This document shows, piece after piece, positions 34,714 to 42,243 of a DNA stretch of 64,000 nt. Position 1 is the stretch's first letter; every line of letters starts with the position of its first letter. The translations under genes and the position numbers were made by a program. Origin of the DNA: Umboniibacter marinipuniceus (GTDB lineage: Bacteria; Pseudomonadota; Gammaproteobacteria; Pseudomonadales; DSM-25080); the NCBI RefSeq assembly GCF_003688415.1, contig NZ_REFJ01000001.1:416645-480644 (forward strand). The letters are read 5' to 3'. The notes below the pieces were generated by a model. The model was not told where the DNA came from. It saw nothing but the letters and a program-made list of their open reading frames with translations, and did no database searches.

Positions 34714-34745
34714 AAAAAGGCCGTTAAACTGAACGGCCTTTTTTC
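34714..34745. terminator. Bidirectional terminator between AbgT and JmjC genes
   Basis: AAGGCCGTT (34717-34725) and AACGGCCTT (34732-34740) form a 9-bp stem with T-runs on both strands (Ts at 34739-34744, As at 34714-34718). It serves the AbgT gene on the plus strand and the oxygenase gene ending at 34793 on the minus strand. Confidence 0.88.
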
Positions 34746-34792: not shown

Positions 34793-35992
34793 CTACCCGT
34801 GGCTGTCAGCTTGAATAATACCAAAGGCGAGTAGTTTATTAATGATGTCGCAACTATCGTCTGATAGTCCGGTTAAGTATTGCGCATTAAATCGTTGTCC
34901 AGCTAGGATATCGTCGATTTTATCTTCGGCATCGGAATTGAACCGGATGTCCCCGCCAGGGCAAACCAAAACCAGCTCGCCAGTTGGTTCGTCCACGAAG
35001 GTACGAGCCAAGGAGTTGGGTCTAACGAGATAGTATTGTTCTGCCGAGCTTTGATTCGCCGCAAGACTCAGCGCACCGCTTACCAAAGCGGGTTGAGAGC
35101 GAATGAAATTTCCGACAAAGGCATTAAAAGCACCCTCTAATTGAGCTGAATTAGCGAAGGCTTTCACCAATTGGTCGAAATGCGCCTGAGCCTGCGAACG
35201 GTCGAAGTCGATTTTAGCGAATCCGGGTGGTAAGGATCTGCGGAAGCCAGGATCGTGAAGCGCAACCTCTGACATGGCTTCAAGCATTAAGTCTGCCCAA
35301 GACTTTACGATGATGCCTACGGTGATATGGAGCGAAGGTTCGCTGCCGCTAGCCACCGCATCATGCATTAGGCCACGGGGTACGTATAGGCACTCGCCCG
35401 CCTTGAGGGTAAATTTGTCTGCGATCTCGCCAGCGGGGTGTTTGCTTGATTGGAAGCGTTCGCCGCGATACGGGTTGTCGACAGGTCGCTCGTATAGCGT
35501 CCAATCCTTTTGACCGCTTACTTGAATAACAAACACATCGTGATCGTCGAAGTGAGTTCGAAAGCCCTGGAAACCGGGTGGTGTGAAATAGATGTTGGTT
35601 TGCACATAGGCACTGAATTCGTACTCAAGCGCTCTGCAGAGCTCCGCAAGCTTCGGGTCAGCCAGCTGTAGTTGGGTAAGAATTAAGGTGGCACCCTGTT
35701 GGAAGTGGCGTATTACCGCCCCGCGATCAATTTCGCCATTGTTAAAGGTGAACTGATCACGTGATAACGGGGGATTTGTGCGAGCCATTTCCAGAGACTC
35801 GGGCGGTAGCTCAGTCTCCGCAATGATGGTATCTAAGCGATGTTCATTGAGTAAGTCTTCAAAGTGCTTTGAAGAACCAGGCTTGCAGCGTAACGCTTTT
35901 TGTTCGTGATAATGATTGAAGAATTCACTGGGCGACATATCGCCCAGTAAGTATTCCAGCGGGTTGCTCACCCAAGGAGGTAACGATGTCAT
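34793..35992 (-). CDS. JmjC/cupin 2-oxoglutarate oxygenase beside repeat-protein gene
   Basis: About 399 residues. The JmjC core has the iron triad His147-x-Asp149 (RTHFDDHDVFVIQVSG) and His210 (LYVPRGLMHDA). The wider pattern (FxTHxDxxDVFVIQ, then WxLYER, then GECLYVPRG) matches the Cupin_4 group that includes YcfD/RoxA, which hydroxylates an Arg of ribosomal protein L16, and the eukaryotic MINA53/NO66 enzymes. The C-terminal third would be the helical dimerisation and winged-helix region. The ATG at 35992 is preferred to a TTG at 35998. The gene starts 15 bases after the stop of the 13-repeat protein on the same strand, so the two are almost certainly one transcript. Confidence 0.88.
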   Translation of the reverse strand: MTSLPPWVSNPLEYLLGDMSPSEFFNHYHEQKALRCKPGSSKHFEDLLNEHRLDTIIAETELPPESLEMARTNPPLSRDQFTFNNGEIDRGAVIRHFQQGATLILTQLQLADPKLAELCRALEYEFSAYVQTNIYFTPPGFQGFRTHFDDHDVFVIQVSGQKDWTLYERPVDNPYRGERFQSSKHPAGEIADKFTLKAGECLYVPRGLMHDAVASGSEPSLHITVGIIVKSWADLMLEAMSEVALHDPGFRRSLPPGFAKIDFDRSQAQAHFDQLVKAFANSAQLEGAFNAFVGNFIRSQPALVSGALSLAANQSSAEQYYLVRPNSLARTFVDEPTGELVLVCPGGDIRFNSDAEDKIDDILAGQRFNAQYLTGLSDDSCDIINKLLAFGIIQADSHG

Positions 35993-36007
35993 GGACAAAC
36001 CACTTGC

Positions 36008-36847
36008 TTATTTGTTTTTGTAGCCGCGATTACCACGCCCACGACCTGACTCATCGTTCGGATCGGAGTCAGTAATACCGCTGCCACCACGTCCGCGCCC
36101 AGATTCATCGTTCGGATCGGAGTCCGTAATGCCGCTGCCACCGCGTCCGCGTCCTGATTCATCATTTGGGTCGGAATCGGTGACGCCGTTGCTACCACGC
36201 CCGCGACCAGATTGATCATTGGGGTCAGAGTCGGTAACGCCGCTGCCGCCACGCCCACGACCTGATTGGTCATTGGGGTCAGAGTCAGTGACGCCGTTGC
36301 TGCCGCGCCCACGGCCTGATTGGTCATTGGGGTCAGAGTCAGTGACGCCGTTGCTACCACGCCCACGACCTGATTGATCATTGGGGTCAGAGTCAGTGAC
36401 GCCGTTGCTACCGCGCCCACGGCCAGACTCGTCATTGGGGTCTGAGTCGGTGACGCCGTTGCTACCACGCCCACGGCCAGACTCGTCATTGGGATCTGAA
36501 TCGGTTGTGCCGCTGCCTCCACGCCCGCGCCCTGACTGGTCATTCGGGTCTGAATCAGTGACGCCACTACCGCCGCGTCCTCGTCCTGATTGATCGTTAG
36601 GGTCAGAATCGGTTGTGCCGCTGCCTCCACGCCCGCGCCCTGACTCGTCATTGGGGTCAGAATCAGTAACGCCACTACCGCCACGTCCGCGTCCAGCTTC
36701 ATCATTCGGATCAGAATCGGTGACAACCTCAGCCTGCGCAGACTTGGAGACGACTGACATGCCGAAGCCAGCGAAGGTTCCCGAGACAACGCCAAGGAAT
36801 GATCGACGAGTTAAATTTGCCTTTTTCTTTGACATAGCAAGCACCAT
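36008..36847 (-). CDS. Tat-exported protein of 13 x 18-residue TDSDPND-GRGRG repeats
   Basis: 279 residues in three parts. The N-terminus is basic with a twin-arginine signal (TRRSFLGVV at 13-21) and a signal-peptidase site after SAQA near residue 39. Residues 42-275 are 13 units of 18 residues with an invariant T-D-S-D-P-N-D-x-x-G-R-G-R-G core. Variation is limited to the first residue (V/T/I), position 8 (E/Q), position 9 (S, A once) and the last three residues (GSG, SNG or NRG). A YKNK tail ends it. There are no Cys and almost no hydrophobic residues after the signal, so the repeat should be disordered or fold only with metal or after modification. The Asp/Asn spacing recalls calcium loops. 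It is not recognised. ATG 36835 is an alternative start. Confidence 0.85.
   Translation of the reverse strand: MVLAMSKKKANLTRRSFLGVVSGTFAGFGMSVVSKSAQAEVVTDSDPNDEAGRGRGGSGVTDSDPNDESGRGRGGSGTTDSDPNDQSGRGRGGSGVTDSDPNDQSGRGRGGSGTTDSDPNDESGRGRGSNGVTDSDPNDESGRGRGSNGVTDSDPNDQSGRGRGSNGVTDSDPNDQSGRGRGSNGVTDSDPNDQSGRGRGGSGVTDSDPNDQSGRGRGSNGVTDSDPNDESGRGRGGSGITDSDPNDESGRGRGGSGITDSDPNDESGRGRGNRGYKNK
36023..36724. repeat. 54-bp tandem repeat, 13 copies
   Basis: Thirteen in-frame 54-bp units (702 bp) encode the repeat domain above. Many differences between units are synonymous. There are no unique spacers, so it is not a CRISPR array. Confidence 0.95.
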
Positions 36848-37450: not shown

Positions 37451-37513
37451 GAGTACCGAGTACCGAGTGCCGAGTGCCGAGTGCCGAGTGCCGAGTGCCG
37501 AGTGCCGAGTGCC
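37451..37513. repeat. Heptanucleotide tandem repeat, GAGTGCC
   Basis: Nine 7-base units: GAGTACC twice, then GAGTGCC seven times, with a decayed tenth copy (GAATGCT) at 37514-37520. It lies between the VOC gene and the 3' end of the phosphopantetheinyl transferase gene, and the decayed copy touches the transferase stop codon. Confidence 0.95.
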
Positions 37514-37518
37514 GAATG

Positions 37519-38112
37519 CTAGGCGGTGGCAATGCCGAGTTGAGTGGTAATCTCATGTGAGAGTGCTTCAAGCTGCTTAGGCTTGGAGTACTGCGCATCA
37601 ACTACCATACAGAAGTTGTAGCTAGCCTGTTGAAGGTTAATGAAATGCCAGTGAGTGCCTGGGATGTCAGGAGAGGTAATCGTTGAGTCCGAGATATGGA
37701 TTCGTCGGCTTTGTGAGTGGATGCCTATTCCCCGGAGCTTACCCCAAGCCTCCATAACGCCAAAGCGGAAATAGAATTCCTCGATACTCTTTGGTGTTTC
37801 GCGCCAAAGGAATTTGCCGATCTTGCGCCAATCACGACGTGGCGAAATGGCTTCAATATCTATCCCAATAGCATGATGAGAGATTGCCGAAGCCACTAAG
37901 TTCTGAGTGTAGGACACTGAGCAATAGAATTGTTCGTCAACTGGATGAAGGCCGTTGTCGTCGCGAATAACTCTATCACTGCTAGCGCCTGCTTGTGATA
38001 ATAGGCCGGCGAGTCTGCGCCGTGAGGCTGAGCGCAAGCCCTGGCGTTTCGCTTGGCGAGTTTGTTGCGGATCATTAGGAACATGGTGAAAGTCGAATAG
38101 CGTGGTTATCAT
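37519..38112 (-). CDS. 4'-phosphopantetheinyl transferase (APE cluster)
   Basis: 197 residues. The Sfp-type motifs are IGIDIEAISPRRDW (Mg-binding Asp/Glu) and VMEAWGKLRGIGI, a variant of the W-x-x-K-E-A-x-x-K motif. The protein is on the short side for the family. It is expected to load phosphopantetheine on the two ACPs of the adjacent cluster. It is divergent from the first plus-strand APE gene, with 58 bases between them. By position it corresponds to the PPTase of the E. coli ape cluster (ApeB, as I recall the naming). Confidence 0.88.
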   Translation of the reverse strand: MITTLFDFHHVPNDPQQTRQAKRQGLRSASRRRLAGLLSQAGASSDRVIRDDNGLHPVDEQFYCSVSYTQNLVASAISHHAIGIDIEAISPRRDWRKIGKFLWRETPKSIEEFYFRFGVMEAWGKLRGIGIHSQSRRIHISDSTITSPDIPGTHWHFINLQQASYNFCMVVDAQYSKPKQLEALSHEITTQLGIATA

Positions 38113-38170: not shown

Positions 38171-38818
38171 ATGACTATCGATACACTAATGATAACGGCT
38201 GTAGCCATTGATATTGACGCTGAGCATAAAGCCGAGCGAATAGCAGACGGCTTTCCCGAGGCGGTTTTTAGCGGGGGAATCAAATTACCAGCGATGCTAA
38301 ATCGGCGCTTGAGTCCGGCAGGTAAGCGTGCCTCGGCACTTGCCAACGAACTGCTCAACGGTGATGGGCTTAGTATCGTTTGGTGCTCGCAATATGGCGA
38401 TCTTGCTAGAACTCAGCGGTTGATGGAGTCCATCGTTAACGAAGAGCCTATGTCTCCTACTGATTTTTCGCTGTCGGTACAAAATGCTGAGCCCGGAATA
38501 CTGTCTATGGCCACCAAGAATCATCAGCATATCGTCGCCATTAGTGCGGCGAAAAATCGTTTCTACAACGCACTACTCGAAGGTGAGTTATTGCGCAGAG
38601 AGCAGGGGGCTGACGTCTTGCTCATTATGACGGACCAAACAGTTCCTCAAGTCTACCAGCGAGTCGCCTCGGCAAATATTGCTACCACAGCGTTAGTGCT
38701 GCGAATCTCTGATCACGGTCAAACCTTAGGTCTTGAGGAAGTCAAAAAGCTAGATGACAGTGCGGGCTATGATGGATTTTTGAACTTGTTAGCGAAGGCA
38801 TTCGATTGGCATGACTAA
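38171..38818 (+). CDS. apeC: Ketosynthase chain-length-factor-like protein (ApeC)
   Basis: 215 residues resembling a shortened N-terminal ketoacyl-synthase domain (Ketoacyl-synt_2). It has a KLPAMLNRRLSPAGKRAS motif and SVQNAEPGILSMATKNHQ where a true ketosynthase would have its nucleophile Cys region; no active-site Cys is present. In E. coli ApeC is the chain-length-factor partner of the ketosynthase ApeO. The gene starts the plus-strand operon and overlaps the acyltransferase by 8 bases. Confidence 0.85.
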   Translation: MTIDTLMITAVAIDIDAEHKAERIADGFPEAVFSGGIKLPAMLNRRLSPAGKRASALANELLNGDGLSIVWCSQYGDLARTQRLMESIVNEEPMSPTDFSLSVQNAEPGILSMATKNHQHIVAISAAKNRFYNALLEGELLRREQGADVLLIMTDQTVPQVYQRVASANIATTALVLRISDHGQTLGLEEVKKLDDSAGYDGFLNLLAKAFDWHD

Positions 38819-39611
38819 GGCACTGAATGGTCCTTCAACTTTCCGCTATCAAGTGTTCTTCGTTGTCGCGACAGCGCTAGGCTTTGTGAGTTTCGGCTTG
38901 GGCGCCATACTACTTTCTCTCTGGGTGCTCCTGTTACGTGTAGTAATTCGTAATCCGGATAGGCGTGTCCGCTGGAGTCGTTATGCCATCAGCCGAGGAT
39001 TCGCTGTGTTAGTTCGCTATATGCAGCTAGCGGGTAGCGTTGATATCCGGTGGAAGAATTGGTCCTCAATGGAGGCCGATATAACGCAAGGTGGTGTTTT
39101 AATTGCCAATCATCCCAGCCTGATTGATGTGGTGATGATGATTGCGCGGATACCCAACGCTAATTGTATTGTTAAGAAGAAACTTTGGAATAATCCTTTC
39201 GTGGGGCTGTTAGTCAGAGCCTGTGGCTTTATTCCGAATGACGGGCGCCCTGAGATGTTGGATGAGTGTCGACAGGCCATTGCACGAGGCGAGGTGATTA
39301 TTATCTACCCCGAAGGGTCAAGAACCTCTAGCATGAAAGCCATGACCTTGTCGCGTGGCGCTGCTAACATAGCTATTCTAGCAGGCGTTCCAGTCCTAAT
39401 GCTGACCATTCAGCGAACGACTCCCTTTCTAACCAAGGAAGTTCATTGGAATAATTTGCCTACGGTAGCGCCGGGTTTTTTGCTATCGTATGAAGGAAGG
39501 TGGGAGCTAGCGCCGTATGATGATTTGCCACGCGCCAAGGCAGCTCGGCAACTCACCGCCGATTGGCTTAAATTTTATACAGACCGAGGTGACAAATGGG
39601 ACAGGAATTAG
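38811..39611 (+). CDS. PlsC-family lysophospholipid acyltransferase (APE cluster)
   Basis: 266 residues. An N-terminal hydrophobic segment is followed by the acyltransferase motif ANHPSLIDV (His-x4-Asp), then FIPNDGRPEML and IIIYPEGSRTSS. It is expected to transfer an acyl chain to a lipid-type acceptor at the membrane, which fits attachment of the aryl polyene to its lipid anchor. It overlaps the next gene by 16 bases. Confidence 0.88.
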   Translation: MTKALNGPSTFRYQVFFVVATALGFVSFGLGAILLSLWVLLLRVVIRNPDRRVRWSRYAISRGFAVLVRYMQLAGSVDIRWKNWSSMEADITQGGVLIANHPSLIDVVMMIARIPNANCIVKKKLWNNPFVGLLVRACGFIPNDGRPEMLDECRQAIARGEVIIIYPEGSRTSSMKAMTLSRGAANIAILAGVPVLMLTIQRTTPFLTKEVHWNNLPTVAPGFLLSYEGRWELAPYDDLPRAKAARQLTADWLKFYTDRGDKWDRN

Positions 39612-39862
39612 AACAGGAAATTAAGGTATTAATTATCGACGCATTAGACCTTGAAGACATGTCTCCCGATGAAATTGAATCGGGTGAGCCGCTATTTGTT
39701 GAAGGGCTGGGCTTAGACTCTATTGATGCATTGGAGCTTGGTTTGGCGCTGCAGAAAAAGTACGGCGTAAAAATTGATCCTGAGGCTAACCCCGAAGAAA
39801 CTCGACAGCATTTCTCAAGCGTTACGGCGTTGGCAGCGTTTGTTGCCGCGGCAAAAGCTTGA
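39596..39862 (+). CDS. apeE: Acyl carrier protein 1 (ApeE-like)
   Basis: 88 residues, acidic, with the phosphopantetheine site Ser42 in LGLDSIDALELGL. In the APE pathway one of two ACPs carries the growing polyene. Which is ApeE or ApeF is assigned by order only. Translation is coupled to the acyltransferase by overlap. Confidence 0.88.
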   Translation: MGQELEQEIKVLIIDALDLEDMSPDEIESGEPLFVEGLGLDSIDALELGLALQKKYGVKIDPEANPEETRQHFSSVTALAAFVAAAKA

Positions 39863-39880
39863 TACGTGGAGAAGGTAGTA

Positions 39881-40126
39881 ATGACTGATCAGCACACCCT
39901 AAATGAACTGAAAGAAATTTTTGAAGAAATGTTTGATGTGGATCCGGATGATGTCACCCTAGAGGCAGCGTTATACGATGACCTCGACATTGATTCGATT
40001 GATGCTGTGGATTTGATTGTTCGCATTCGCGAAATGACCGGTAAGAAAGTTGCGCCCGAGGAATTTAAATCGGTCCGGACTGTTGGCGAAGTGGTAGAGG
40101 CTATTAATACTCTACGAAACAGTTGA
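39881..40126 (+). CDS. apeF: Acyl carrier protein 2 (ApeF-like)
   Basis: 81 residues with Ser39 in LDIDSIDAVDLIV, the attachment site. A GTG at 39866 could extend it by 5 residues, but the ATG at 39881 has GAAGG upstream. Its stop overlaps the TTG start of the membrane protein (TTGA). Confidence 0.88.
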   Translation: MTDQHTLNELKEIFEEMFDVDPDDVTLEAALYDDLDIDSIDAVDLIVRIREMTGKKVAPEEFKSVRTVGEVVEAINTLRNS

Positions 40127-40665
40127 ACGCGCTAATATTCTTGCTCTCTATACTTTATCCCATCAGCCTCTGGTTATTATGGGATTCAGTGCCAAGAGCC
40201 TTATTCGTTGTGCCGGTAATCCTGCTCTTGGTGCTAAGGAATCTTGAATTTATTCGTGCGGGGCTCTCCCCATCAAAAAAACTACTGGCGTTGAGCTTGC
40301 TGGTATTGGTTGTCGCCGCCTTCGTTTTATTTCCGACTATATCGGCACTCTCGTATCCAGTGGTCATCAACCTGATGATGCTGGTTTGGTTTGCGCAGAG
40401 TTTGCGAGCAGGGCAAGTCCCTCTGGTAGAGCGGATAGCACGAATAAAGGAACCAGAGCTTGAGGAAAAAGGCGTGCACTATACTCGCCAAGTGACCAAG
40501 CTATGGTGCATCGTCTTTGCACTCACCGCGGCAGTAAGTGCTTATACGGTAGTGCTCGGAGATCGCGATATTTGGTTGCTGTTCAATGGCCTGATCATCT
40601 ACTTATTCGTTGCAGGGACATTTGTACTGGAGTTCCTATTTCGAACTTGGTATCGCAGGACTTAG
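40123..40665 (+). CDS. APE-cluster membrane protein (COG4648-like)
   Basis: 180 residues with about five to six hydrophobic helices. The internal GQVPLVERIARIKEPELEEKG loop is characteristic of the small membrane protein always found after the ACPs in APE clusters (ApeG by position). It probably helps place the pathway at the membrane. The start is TTG, overlapping the ACP stop. Confidence 0.78.
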   Translation: MNALIFLLSILYPISLWLLWDSVPRALFVVPVILLLVLRNLEFIRAGLSPSKKLLALSLLVLVVAAFVLFPTISALSYPVVINLMMLVWFAQSLRAGQVPLVERIARIKEPELEEKGVHYTRQVTKLWCIVFALTAAVSAYTVVLGDRDIWLLFNGLIIYLFVAGTFVLEFLFRTWYRRT

Positions 40666-40671
40666 TGAGTT

Positions 40672-42243
40672 ATGAGTAGATTTGTATCGCAACTGAAAAA
40701 GTTTGTATTGCAACGTAGCGACTTGGCACTGCAAAGCTACCAAGCCATTCAAGCGCATGCCACCACGGCTGAAGTGGGCTTGTATTGCCAGCGCTTGGAT
40801 GAGTGCTGTGGTGTCCTTTTGGGGTTGTTAGAGAGTGGCGCTACACCTATTCTCTTGAATCAGGTGAGTGAGTCTGCGCTAGAGCAATTCTTGGCGGGAG
40901 GGAGAGATGCCTATGTCGACGGTGTGTTCCATGAATCTAAGTCGGCCGATCGAATCATTGAAAGTCCAGGTGAGCTGGCGTTTCTAACCTCGGGTTCGAG
41001 TGGCGAAGCCAAACTGGTTTTTAAGACGCTCGCGCAGTTAGAGAGCGAGTCCCTTGTGCTGGAGGAGTTCTACCAAGGGGTGAAGTGCGTTGGCGGAACC
41101 GTTTCGCATCAACATATCTACGGCTTCCTGTTCCGTCTGATGGTCCCTATTAACTTAGCTTTAGAGCTAGTGCCTGAAACTTGGGTGTACCCAAGTGATC
41201 TCGCCCAGGCGTTGAATGAGAGCGATGACTTAGCTGTAATTTCGTCGCCCTCTCAACTGGCTAGGCTAGCATCAACAATGGCGCCTAAGCGCGCCGCCGC
41301 GTTAGTCGTTAGCTCGGGTGGCCCGTTATCTTGTAATGATGCCGTAGCGGCTGCTAATTGGCTTCAGACGCCTATTTTGGAGCTTTATGGGAGTACCGAA
41401 ACGGGCGGTATTGCCACGCGATCGCAGTCGGCGGGGCAGCTTAGCTGGCAGCCCTTGGCGGGTGTGGCGATAGATTTCGTTAGCAACGAAGTTTCTTCAC
41501 CATGGTGCCAGGCCCGTCAATTAGACGATACCTTAACTGCTACGGGTTCGGGGCAGGCCTTTGAGCTGACCGGCCGAGTAGATCGAATTGTTAAGGTCAA
41601 TGAAAAGCGAATATCCTTAACGGCCATAGAGCAGGCGCTACAGGGGCACGAAGTCGTTAAGTCAATTCGGGTGGTGCCCTACAGTCATTCGCGGCTAGCG
41701 GCGTTTGTGGTAGTCGATGAATCTATTCTTGCGCGGAACGCCTCGTGGCAGGCATTGAAGGCGGAATTACGTCTCTTCTGTACCTCGTTTCTCGAACCCA
41801 GTACCATACCGCGTAAATGGCGATTCCTTCGGAGTCTGCCAACTACGGAGAGATCGAAAGTGACAGACCCGTTGTGCCACAAATTACTTACTACCGACAA
41901 GCGCATACCGTCACCTATTAGTGCGGATTGGCTGTCTGCCCATGAGCTCGCTTTAGGGGTTGCTATTGTGCCGAAATTGCCGTGGTTCCAAGGTCATTTC
42001 CCAGGACAGCCAGTGTTGCCGGGTGTGGCGATGATTTGGATGGCGGAGCAATATATTCGCGGCTGGTTTGATGAAGAACGTACAATTAGAACCCTGTCCA
42101 CAGTAAAGTTTCAATCCGTGATCGCGCCTGAAACTGAGGTCCAAATACGGTTAAAGTATGTTGCCGAGAAAGCGCAATATCACCTCAAAATTTTGAATGA
42201 CGAAACGGTTTTTGCTCAGGCAAAACTATTGGTGGAAGATTAA
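40672..42243 (+). CDS. apeH: Acyl-ACP/CoA ligase fused to hot-dog dehydratase (ApeH-ApeI)
   Basis: 523 residues in two domains. Residues about 1-400 are an adenylate-forming ligase with the phosphate loop LTSGSSGEAKLVFKT, ELYGSTETGG and a hinge region LTGRVDRIVKVNEKRISL. From about residue 415 a FabA/FabZ-type hot-dog domain begins, with LPWFQGHFPGQPVLPGV containing the catalytic His. In the E. coli cluster these are separate proteins, the ligase ApeH and dehydratase ApeI. The ligase should load the aryl starter acid on the ACP. Confidence 0.88.
   Translation: MSRFVSQLKKFVLQRSDLALQSYQAIQAHATTAEVGLYCQRLDECCGVLLGLLESGATPILLNQVSESALEQFLAGGRDAYVDGVFHESKSADRIIESPGELAFLTSGSSGEAKLVFKTLAQLESESLVLEEFYQGVKCVGGTVSHQHIYGFLFRLMVPINLALELVPETWVYPSDLAQALNESDDLAVISSPSQLARLASTMAPKRAAALVVSSGGPLSCNDAVAAANWLQTPILELYGSTETGGIATRSQSAGQLSWQPLAGVAIDFVSNEVSSPWCQARQLDDTLTATGSGQAFELTGRVDRIVKVNEKRISLTAIEQALQGHEVVKSIRVVPYSHSRLAAFVVVDESILARNASWQALKAELRLFCTSFLEPSTIPRKWRFLRSLPTTERSKVTDPLCHKLLTTDKRIPSPISADWLSAHELALGVAIVPKLPWFQGHFPGQPVLPGVAMIWMAEQYIRGWFDEERTIRTLSTVKFQSVIAPETEVQIRLKYVAEKAQYHLKILNDETVFAQAKLLVED

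Follow-up and report, generated by a model that had tools for sequence, protein, structure and literature searches.

A tandem-repeat protein with a twin-arginine signal and its neighbouring NO66-like JmjC oxygenase in Umboniibacter marinipuniceus: a proposed substrate-plus-modifier module

Hydroxylases of the NO66/MINA53 branch of the JmjC family are known chiefly as ribosome modifiers. What, then, would an enzyme of this kind do beside a gene for an exported repeat protein? The question is raised by a 64,000-nucleotide stretch of the genome of Umboniibacter marinipuniceus (contig NZ_REFJ01000001.1, positions 416,645 to 480,644; the whole stretch is called here the window, and positions are counted from its first letter). 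In the window, a gene for a JmjC_2 oxygenase and a gene for a protein made of tandem repeats behind a twin-arginine translocation (Tat) signal lie on the same strand (-), with 15 bases between the stop codon of the one and the ATG of the next. The initial annotation had described this pair, with 13 repeat units of invariant core and an intact HxD...H iron triad, as a candidate modified-repeat system. It is proposed here, with a probability of about 0.7, that the two genes form a dedicated substrate-plus-modifier module, in which the oxygenase hydroxylates the repeat units in the cytoplasm and the product is then exported by the Tat system.

Both open reading frames were confirmed, as were the Tat signal (NLTRRSFLG) and the 13 exact 18-residue units (Table 1). 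An alternative ATG of the repeat gene lies at 36835. The signal is NLTRRSFLGVVSGTFAGFGMSVVSKSAQA, and its R-R-S-F residues are unvarying across 19 aligned repeat proteins. The protein has the sequence features of a Tat substrate, the twin-arginine motif TRRSFLG and an h-region, and a Tat system is present, the genome encoding TatC (E 7.7e-71); NCBIfam Tat-type matches of the protein fall below the cut-off. The units follow each other at a spacing of exactly 18 codons, and 13 of their 18 positions, namely TDSDPND, GRGRG and position 17 (G), show the same residue in every one of the 13 units. The codons vary at each of these invariant positions, and pairwise comparison of the units gave 626 synonymous against 196 non-synonymous codon differences. 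It is therefore the protein sequence that has been kept, not the DNA alone. Tandem Repeats Finder reported a 54-bp array of 12.8 copies in the gene. No Pfam family matched any of the 19 repeat proteins, while NCBIfam returned Tat-signal models for at most 8 of them and staphylococcal SD-repeat adhesin models for one or two; the latter were taken as low-complexity matches, and membership of a known family was rejected for the repeats. A PDB sequence search with the repeat protein gave only two matches (E 0.22 and 0.46).

The oxygenase matches JmjC_2 (PF08007) with 91.9 bits, for a cut-off of 22. The triad H147, D149 and H210, read as intact in the initial annotation, and the 2-oxoglutarate (2OG) lysine K162 are identical in all 53 aligned rows of its clade, two of which are duplicates. 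H210 aligns with the histidine of the PRGFIH motif of NO66, and its assignment as third iron ligand follows the spacing reported for relatives (excerpt of PMC6006756). The structure model of the enzyme (predicted local distance difference test, pLDDT, 91.5) has human NO66 (4ccm) as best match in the fold search, with Z 31.0 over 389 aligned residues and a root-mean-square deviation of 4.5, and Foldseek gave E 8.5e-27 against the same protein. The three-domain fold of NO66 and MINA53 (JmjC, dimerisation and winged-helix) is matched over its whole length. MINA53 follows with Z 28.9, then YcfD and YxbC (both about 20) and FIH (about 13). In profile comparison, E was 1e-46 for NO66, 1.5e-43 for MINA53, 6e-21 for YxbC, 4e-7 for R. 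marinus YcfD and 1e-4 to 3e-4 for E. coli YcfD. The oxygenase is thus nearer to NO66/MINA53 than to YcfD/RoxA, to which the initial annotation had likened it. The substrate contacts R297, Y328 and S421 reported for NO66 (excerpt of PMC6006756) align with I104, Y135 and G226, so that the Tyr is kept and the other two are replaced; G226 is present in 53/53 clade rows.

The genome encodes four JmjC_2 matches in all: the window oxygenase, a RoxA-like gene which adjoins the adenylosuccinate lyase gene and also matches the ROXA-like winged-helix family, a weak match, and the enzyme of a second locus. A RoxA identity of the window oxygenase was rejected on sequence, on fold, on the tree and on the presence of this separate RoxA-like gene. 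The second locus (L010:228-2370, on contig C1) encodes an enzyme 44% identical to the window oxygenase, directly preceded by a Cys-rich NLTRRSFLG Tat protein with TDSDTGSNSDDAGNGRNC-type units. The repeat profile, run over the whole genome, found the repeat proteins of these two loci and no third. The pairing is no local accident, since U. marinipuniceus carries it twice, the second time in diverged form.

The linkage is recurrent and nearly obligate. When species genomes were scanned, 39 loci with oxygenase relatives at 40-50% identity were found, mostly from Maricaulis, Brevundimonas and other Caulobacterales or Hyphomonadaceae. A same-strand [TS]DxD-repeat gene adjoins the enzyme gene in 36 of them, upstream in 34 and downstream in two (L041 and L046), and the link therefore survives a change of gene order. 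The three loci with no adjacent repeat gene are L021, L030 and L037. The start of L030 coincides with a contig end, and a repeat gene of its genome lies at the end of another contig; in the genome of L037, repeat proteins are found on other contigs. Other neighbours common to at least four loci vary between locus groups, being ruvA, ruvB, ruvC, transketolase and phosphoglucose isomerase in one group and fructose-bisphosphate aldolase or enoyl-CoA hydratase in others. In the tree, the repeat-linked enzymes form one group of 54 rows (Shimodaira-Hasegawa-like approximate likelihood-ratio support 93), 51 of them labelled as linked, L030 included, and three unlinked (L021, L037 and L129). A group with no detected repeats lies beside it, and RoxA-like rows lie further out. 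This tree came from a quick LG+G4 search, with two duplicate rows and some long branches outside the group.

Co-occurrence was measured in 385 alphaproteobacterial genomes with an enzyme profile and with a repeat profile, A2, built from repeat proteins that neighbour enzymes. As at most four and seven first-look candidates, respectively, were scored per genome, misses are possible. The repeat profile matched 12 genomes, of which G233 (E 6.5e-4) was set aside because only the Tat signal of an unrelated protein had matched. A clade-level enzyme was found in 12 genomes (E 5e-87 or better, the next being 1.4e-49), membership being set by this post-hoc gap and checked on the tree. Enzyme and true repeats occur together in 11 genomes and are adjacent in all 11; no genome has true repeats without the enzyme, and only G400 appeared initially to have the enzyme alone (Fisher p 2e-20). 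Forty genomes with other JmjC_2 matches only (E 1e-20 or better) gave no repeat match. The pairing seen in the initial annotation, which was expected to fail if most homologous repeat proteins had no oxygenase beside them, has thus stood up in other genomes, in the 36 loci mentioned above and in 11 of 11 repeat-bearing genomes. Four genomes (G201, G429, G436 and G346) carry one clade enzyme each and repeat proteins on at least two contigs, as would be expected of a modifier whose substrates are encoded in trans.

These counts bear on another possible role of the enzyme, that of a ribosomal oxygenase acting on uL2, uL15 or another ribosomal protein, with the adjacent repeat gene being incidental. 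The nearest solved relatives are indeed ribosomal histidyl hydroxylases. However, ribosomal proteins are universal whereas the clade enzyme is confined to 12 of the 385 genomes and tracks the repeat proteins, the U. marinipuniceus genome has its separate RoxA-like gene, and only one of the three NO66 substrate contacts is kept. A ribosomal role is accordingly regarded as highly unlikely.

Outside the Alphaproteobacteria, the repeat profile matched one of 369 gammaproteobacterial genomes, that of U. marinipuniceus itself (E limit 1e-8). In its order, a clade-level enzyme is present in 3 of 194 genomes, all from its own genus, and all three have repeat proteins. This distribution fits the acquisition of an alphaproteobacterial module by one gammaproteobacterial genus. 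A mobile origin was also considered and, on plasmid records, rejected: 23 such records matched, all below 60% identity and 17 of them from Streptomyces, the ten that were listed being 25-31% identical. Separately, another genome of the order has three side-by-side JmjC_2 matches (L057, G013:C143:3184-6156), and the repeat profile found nothing there.

The residue that might be modified was sought in the conservation of the units. Among 99 repeat proteins that a script counted as distinct, 687 of 695 units fit [TSN]DxD followed by 2, 5 or, in two cases, 6 residues and then D. This core D is mostly followed by xxGxGR, with the R present in 620 of the 687. In a count anchored on [DN]xx[GNS]xG, in which the upstream part was chosen for matching xDxD, so that Asp is favoured, and from which 61 anchors were excluded, D2 was found in 673, D4 in 684, the core D in 674 and R in 613 of 694 units. 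His makes up 0.7% of repeat residues. FIH was reported to hydroxylate Asn, Asp and His at C3 (excerpt of PMC9994133), and JmjC enzymes are therefore capable of Asp hydroxylation.

A leader, LxDxxI-x7-RR, gapless in the alignment, is carried by 10 of 10 repeat proteins of one enzyme subclade (L124, L127, L128 and L130) and by 0 of 85 other repeat proteins. It had been noticed in proteins of four genomes before it was counted, and the count precedes the finding of two G429 repeat proteins with variants of it (LTDADV and IKEDEI). When a profile of the leader region was searched in four genomes, with 150 of 187 to 375 candidates scored in each, repeat proteins matched from positions 1 to 3 and other Tat proteins only from position 12 or later. 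In G400, on a contig other than that of the enzyme, the profile detected (E 9.7e-5) a frame of 142 residues (L158:171-539) in which the leader and a Tat signal precede DSD-x5-D units that have no GR. The exact DSD-x5-D pattern occurs twice in it, a count reached by 417 of 100000 shuffles. It is thus plausible that this twelfth clade-enzyme genome also holds a candidate substrate. The frame keeps DSD without GRG, and the Asp part is therefore what stays.

The leader resembles what may be a binding site, and some Tat substrates have dedicated chaperones. The repeat protein could thus be an ordinary exported low-complexity acidic protein, with the JmjC protein as its non-catalytic chaperone or quality-control partner for Tat export. 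Yet a pure chaperone would need neither three iron ligands nor a 2OG lysine, all four of which are invariant in 53/53 rows, and such a role seems improbable.

The same module might instead act on the Arg of GxGR, as the initial annotation had suggested by analogy with RoxA and ribosomal protein L16. GxGR occurs in most units, and the R is nearly as constant as the Asp residues in units with the full Gly pattern. Moreover, Gly stands at the place of NO66 S421 in the clade and in 12 of 12 RoxA-like rows, so that the pocket is not necessarily one for His. However, some unit types, such as TDSDPNDYANHG, contain no Arg at all, the G400 units have no GR, NO66 is a closer match to the enzyme than RoxA is, and Arg-substituted peptides were reported as neither substrates nor inhibitors of NO66/MINA53 (excerpt of PMC9994133). 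The Arg proposal, although weakened by these units and by the slightly higher constancy of Asp, is kept as one option, a rather doubtful one.

Taken together, these features suggest the following course for the proposed module. The anatomy of the pair, the family of the enzyme, the recurrence of the linkage and the conservation of the unit were observed, whereas the action of the enzyme on the repeats, the residue modified, the order of modification before export and the function of the product are inferred. The repeat protein would be made with its Tat signal, and the cytoplasm would supply the iron, 2OG and O2 with which the JmjC_2 oxygenase would hydroxylate a residue in the units. The likeliest target would be C3 (the beta carbon) of one of the Asp residues conserved in the core TDSD-(2 or 5)-D, and the next candidate the Arg of GxGR. 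Tat transport takes place after translation, which would leave time for modification, and the Tat system would then export the finished protein. The exported chain would stay in the envelope as a polyvalent, acidic and probably metal-binding polymer, soluble, lipid-anchored or wall-bound. A lipobox-like motif follows the signal in 20 of 67 repeat proteins listed, and one repeat protein (L097:1312-2151) carries a fused PG_binding_1 domain (67 bits) at its C-terminus; such members are therefore placed in the envelope, and some repeat proteins may be tied to peptidoglycan. In its most specific form, which is put forward tentatively, the proposal is that bacteria make a class of exported polymer in which tandem repeats, beta-hydroxylated on Asp in the cytoplasm by a dedicated NO66-like JmjC enzyme and then exported by Tat, provide the envelope with a polyvalent hydroxy-aspartate ligand for metals.

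Several points weigh against this proposal or parts of it. With an anchor that names neither Asp nor Arg, D4 was counted 466 times, the core D 467 times and R 449 times over 622 anchors, many of which are off register; Asp is thus only slightly more constant than Arg. The pocket residues, as read from the alignment, would not prove which side chain is accepted. The argument from G400 comes from one genome, whose gene may be decaying. The probable role in metal binding is suggested only by the acidic, polyvalent composition. The AF2 model of the repeat protein has a pLDDT of 45 and is predicted to be disordered, whereas Tat was reported to detect whether its substrates are folded (excerpt of PMC5936819). 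L021 (L021:3947-5068), from a gammaproteobacterial metagenome-assembled genome, has a clade enzyme, with no repeat protein detected nearby or genome-wide. Finally, a strictosidine-synthase/SMP-30-like gene lies downstream of the enzyme in nine loci (e.g. L018:3362-4579), and the module may have extra parts in some species.

Table 1. Positions in the window of the gene pair and of the sequence features discussed in the text
Feature	Position	Strand	Basis
JmjC_2 Fe(II)/2-oxoglutarate oxygenase, 399 aa, NO66-like	34793..35992	-	Pfam, profile, fold
JmjC_2 domain, residues 112-235	35288..35659	-	PF08007
Iron ligand H147	35552..35554	-	53/53 clade rows
Iron ligand D149	35546..35548	-	53/53 clade rows
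Iron ligand H210 (PxGxxH)	35363..35365	-	53/53 clade rows
Repeat protein, Tat signal, 279 aa, proposed substrate	36008..36847	-	Open reading frame; homologues found by profile A2
Twin-arginine signal region (NLTRRSFLG...SAQA), residues 1-39	36731..36847	-	Read from translation; cleavage site inferred
13 tandem 18-residue units, mostly TDSDPND[EQ]SGRGRG[GS][SN]G[VTI]	36020..36721	-	

The pair is flanked by genes for an AbgT-type transporter and a glyoxalase-family protein. Between the convergent transporter and oxygenase genes lies an inverted repeat, AAGGCCGTT-AAACTG-AACGGCCTT (34717-34740), with A/T-run flanks; it looks like a shared terminator, although it was read by eye and is absent from the terminator-scan list. 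Sigma-70 promoter-like and terminator-like sites were no commoner than in shuffles. The glyoxalase-family gene is closely followed on its downstream side by a tandem repeat of 7 bp (GAGTGCC), which extends over 37451-37519 in 9.9 copies with 96% match. The region 38171-42243 encodes beta-ketoacyl synthase N-terminal, acyltransferase, AMP-binding and ApeI-like dehydratase domains, which suggests an aryl-polyene-type cluster beside the pair.

Each part of the proposed module is of a known kind, and the combination of enzyme and repeats appears to be new. No description of such a pair was found among the literature matches listed, in a search that left most subscription papers and bioRxiv preprints outside. 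If the proposal is true, the exported chain would be, as far as is known, the first Tat-exported product resembling ribosomally synthesised and post-translationally modified peptides (RiPPs) and the first secreted substrate for the NO66 branch of enzymes. An enzyme-substrate pair with 13 units of identical core would make the role of bacterial NO66-like enzymes directly testable, and the short units could serve as simple peptide substrates and also yield an oxidised biopolymer that is polyvalent. As in RiPP systems, a putative precursor gene lies beside a gene for a candidate modifying enzyme in 36 of 39 loci, where the neighbour would carry out the modification. The term RiPP-like, used in the initial annotation, is fair by analogy; no linked protease, transporter or immunity gene was recognised among the neighbour clusters common to at least 4 of 40 loci, in a survey made by eye in which ten proteins, nine of them neighbours of clade enzymes, were checked.

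Among known enzymes, NO66 (RIOX1) and MINA53 (RIOX2) share with the window oxygenase the whole-length fold, the iron triad, the 2OG lysine and, at NO66 Y328, the Tyr Y135. They differ by the presence of R297 and S421, replaced here by I104 and G226, and they hydroxylate His, a rare residue in the repeats, whereas the window enzyme is linked to exported proteins. YcfD/RoxA, the arginine hydroxylase of L16, belongs to the same Pfam family, has the same overall fold and is likewise a bacterial protein hydroxylase. It lies further away, with profile E from 4e-7 to 3e-4 and a Z of about 20 where NO66 has 31, and the 12 RoxA-like rows compared have Arg where the clade of the window enzyme has the 2OG Lys. 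YxbC of B. subtilis (7zcc, 1vrb) is a bacterial JmjC protein whose structure falls, by its fold, in the same branch, although the match ends near residue 300; we know of no substrate for it. FIH is also a JmjC enzyme, reported to act on repeat proteins, those with ankyrin repeats (excerpts of PMC3569879 and PMC9189129), but it is a human enzyme with a weaker fold match (Z about 13), and its substrates have the ankyrin fold. A parallel in gene arrangement is offered by the bufferins and other signal-peptide-bearing RiPPs modified by multinuclear non-heme iron-dependent oxidative enzymes (MNIOs), in which a protein-size precursor with an export signal is likewise encoded beside an iron-dependent oxidative modifier, with tandem precursor genes and some lipoprotein forms as here (excerpt of PMC12452194). 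Bufferins combine an MNIO, the Sec route and Cys cores, whereas the pair described here combines a JmjC 2OG oxygenase, a Tat signal and Asp/Gly/Arg repeats. Premature export of the signal-bearing precursor was named as a problem by the authors of the bufferin work (excerpt of PMC12452194), and the Tat route would be a natural answer to it.

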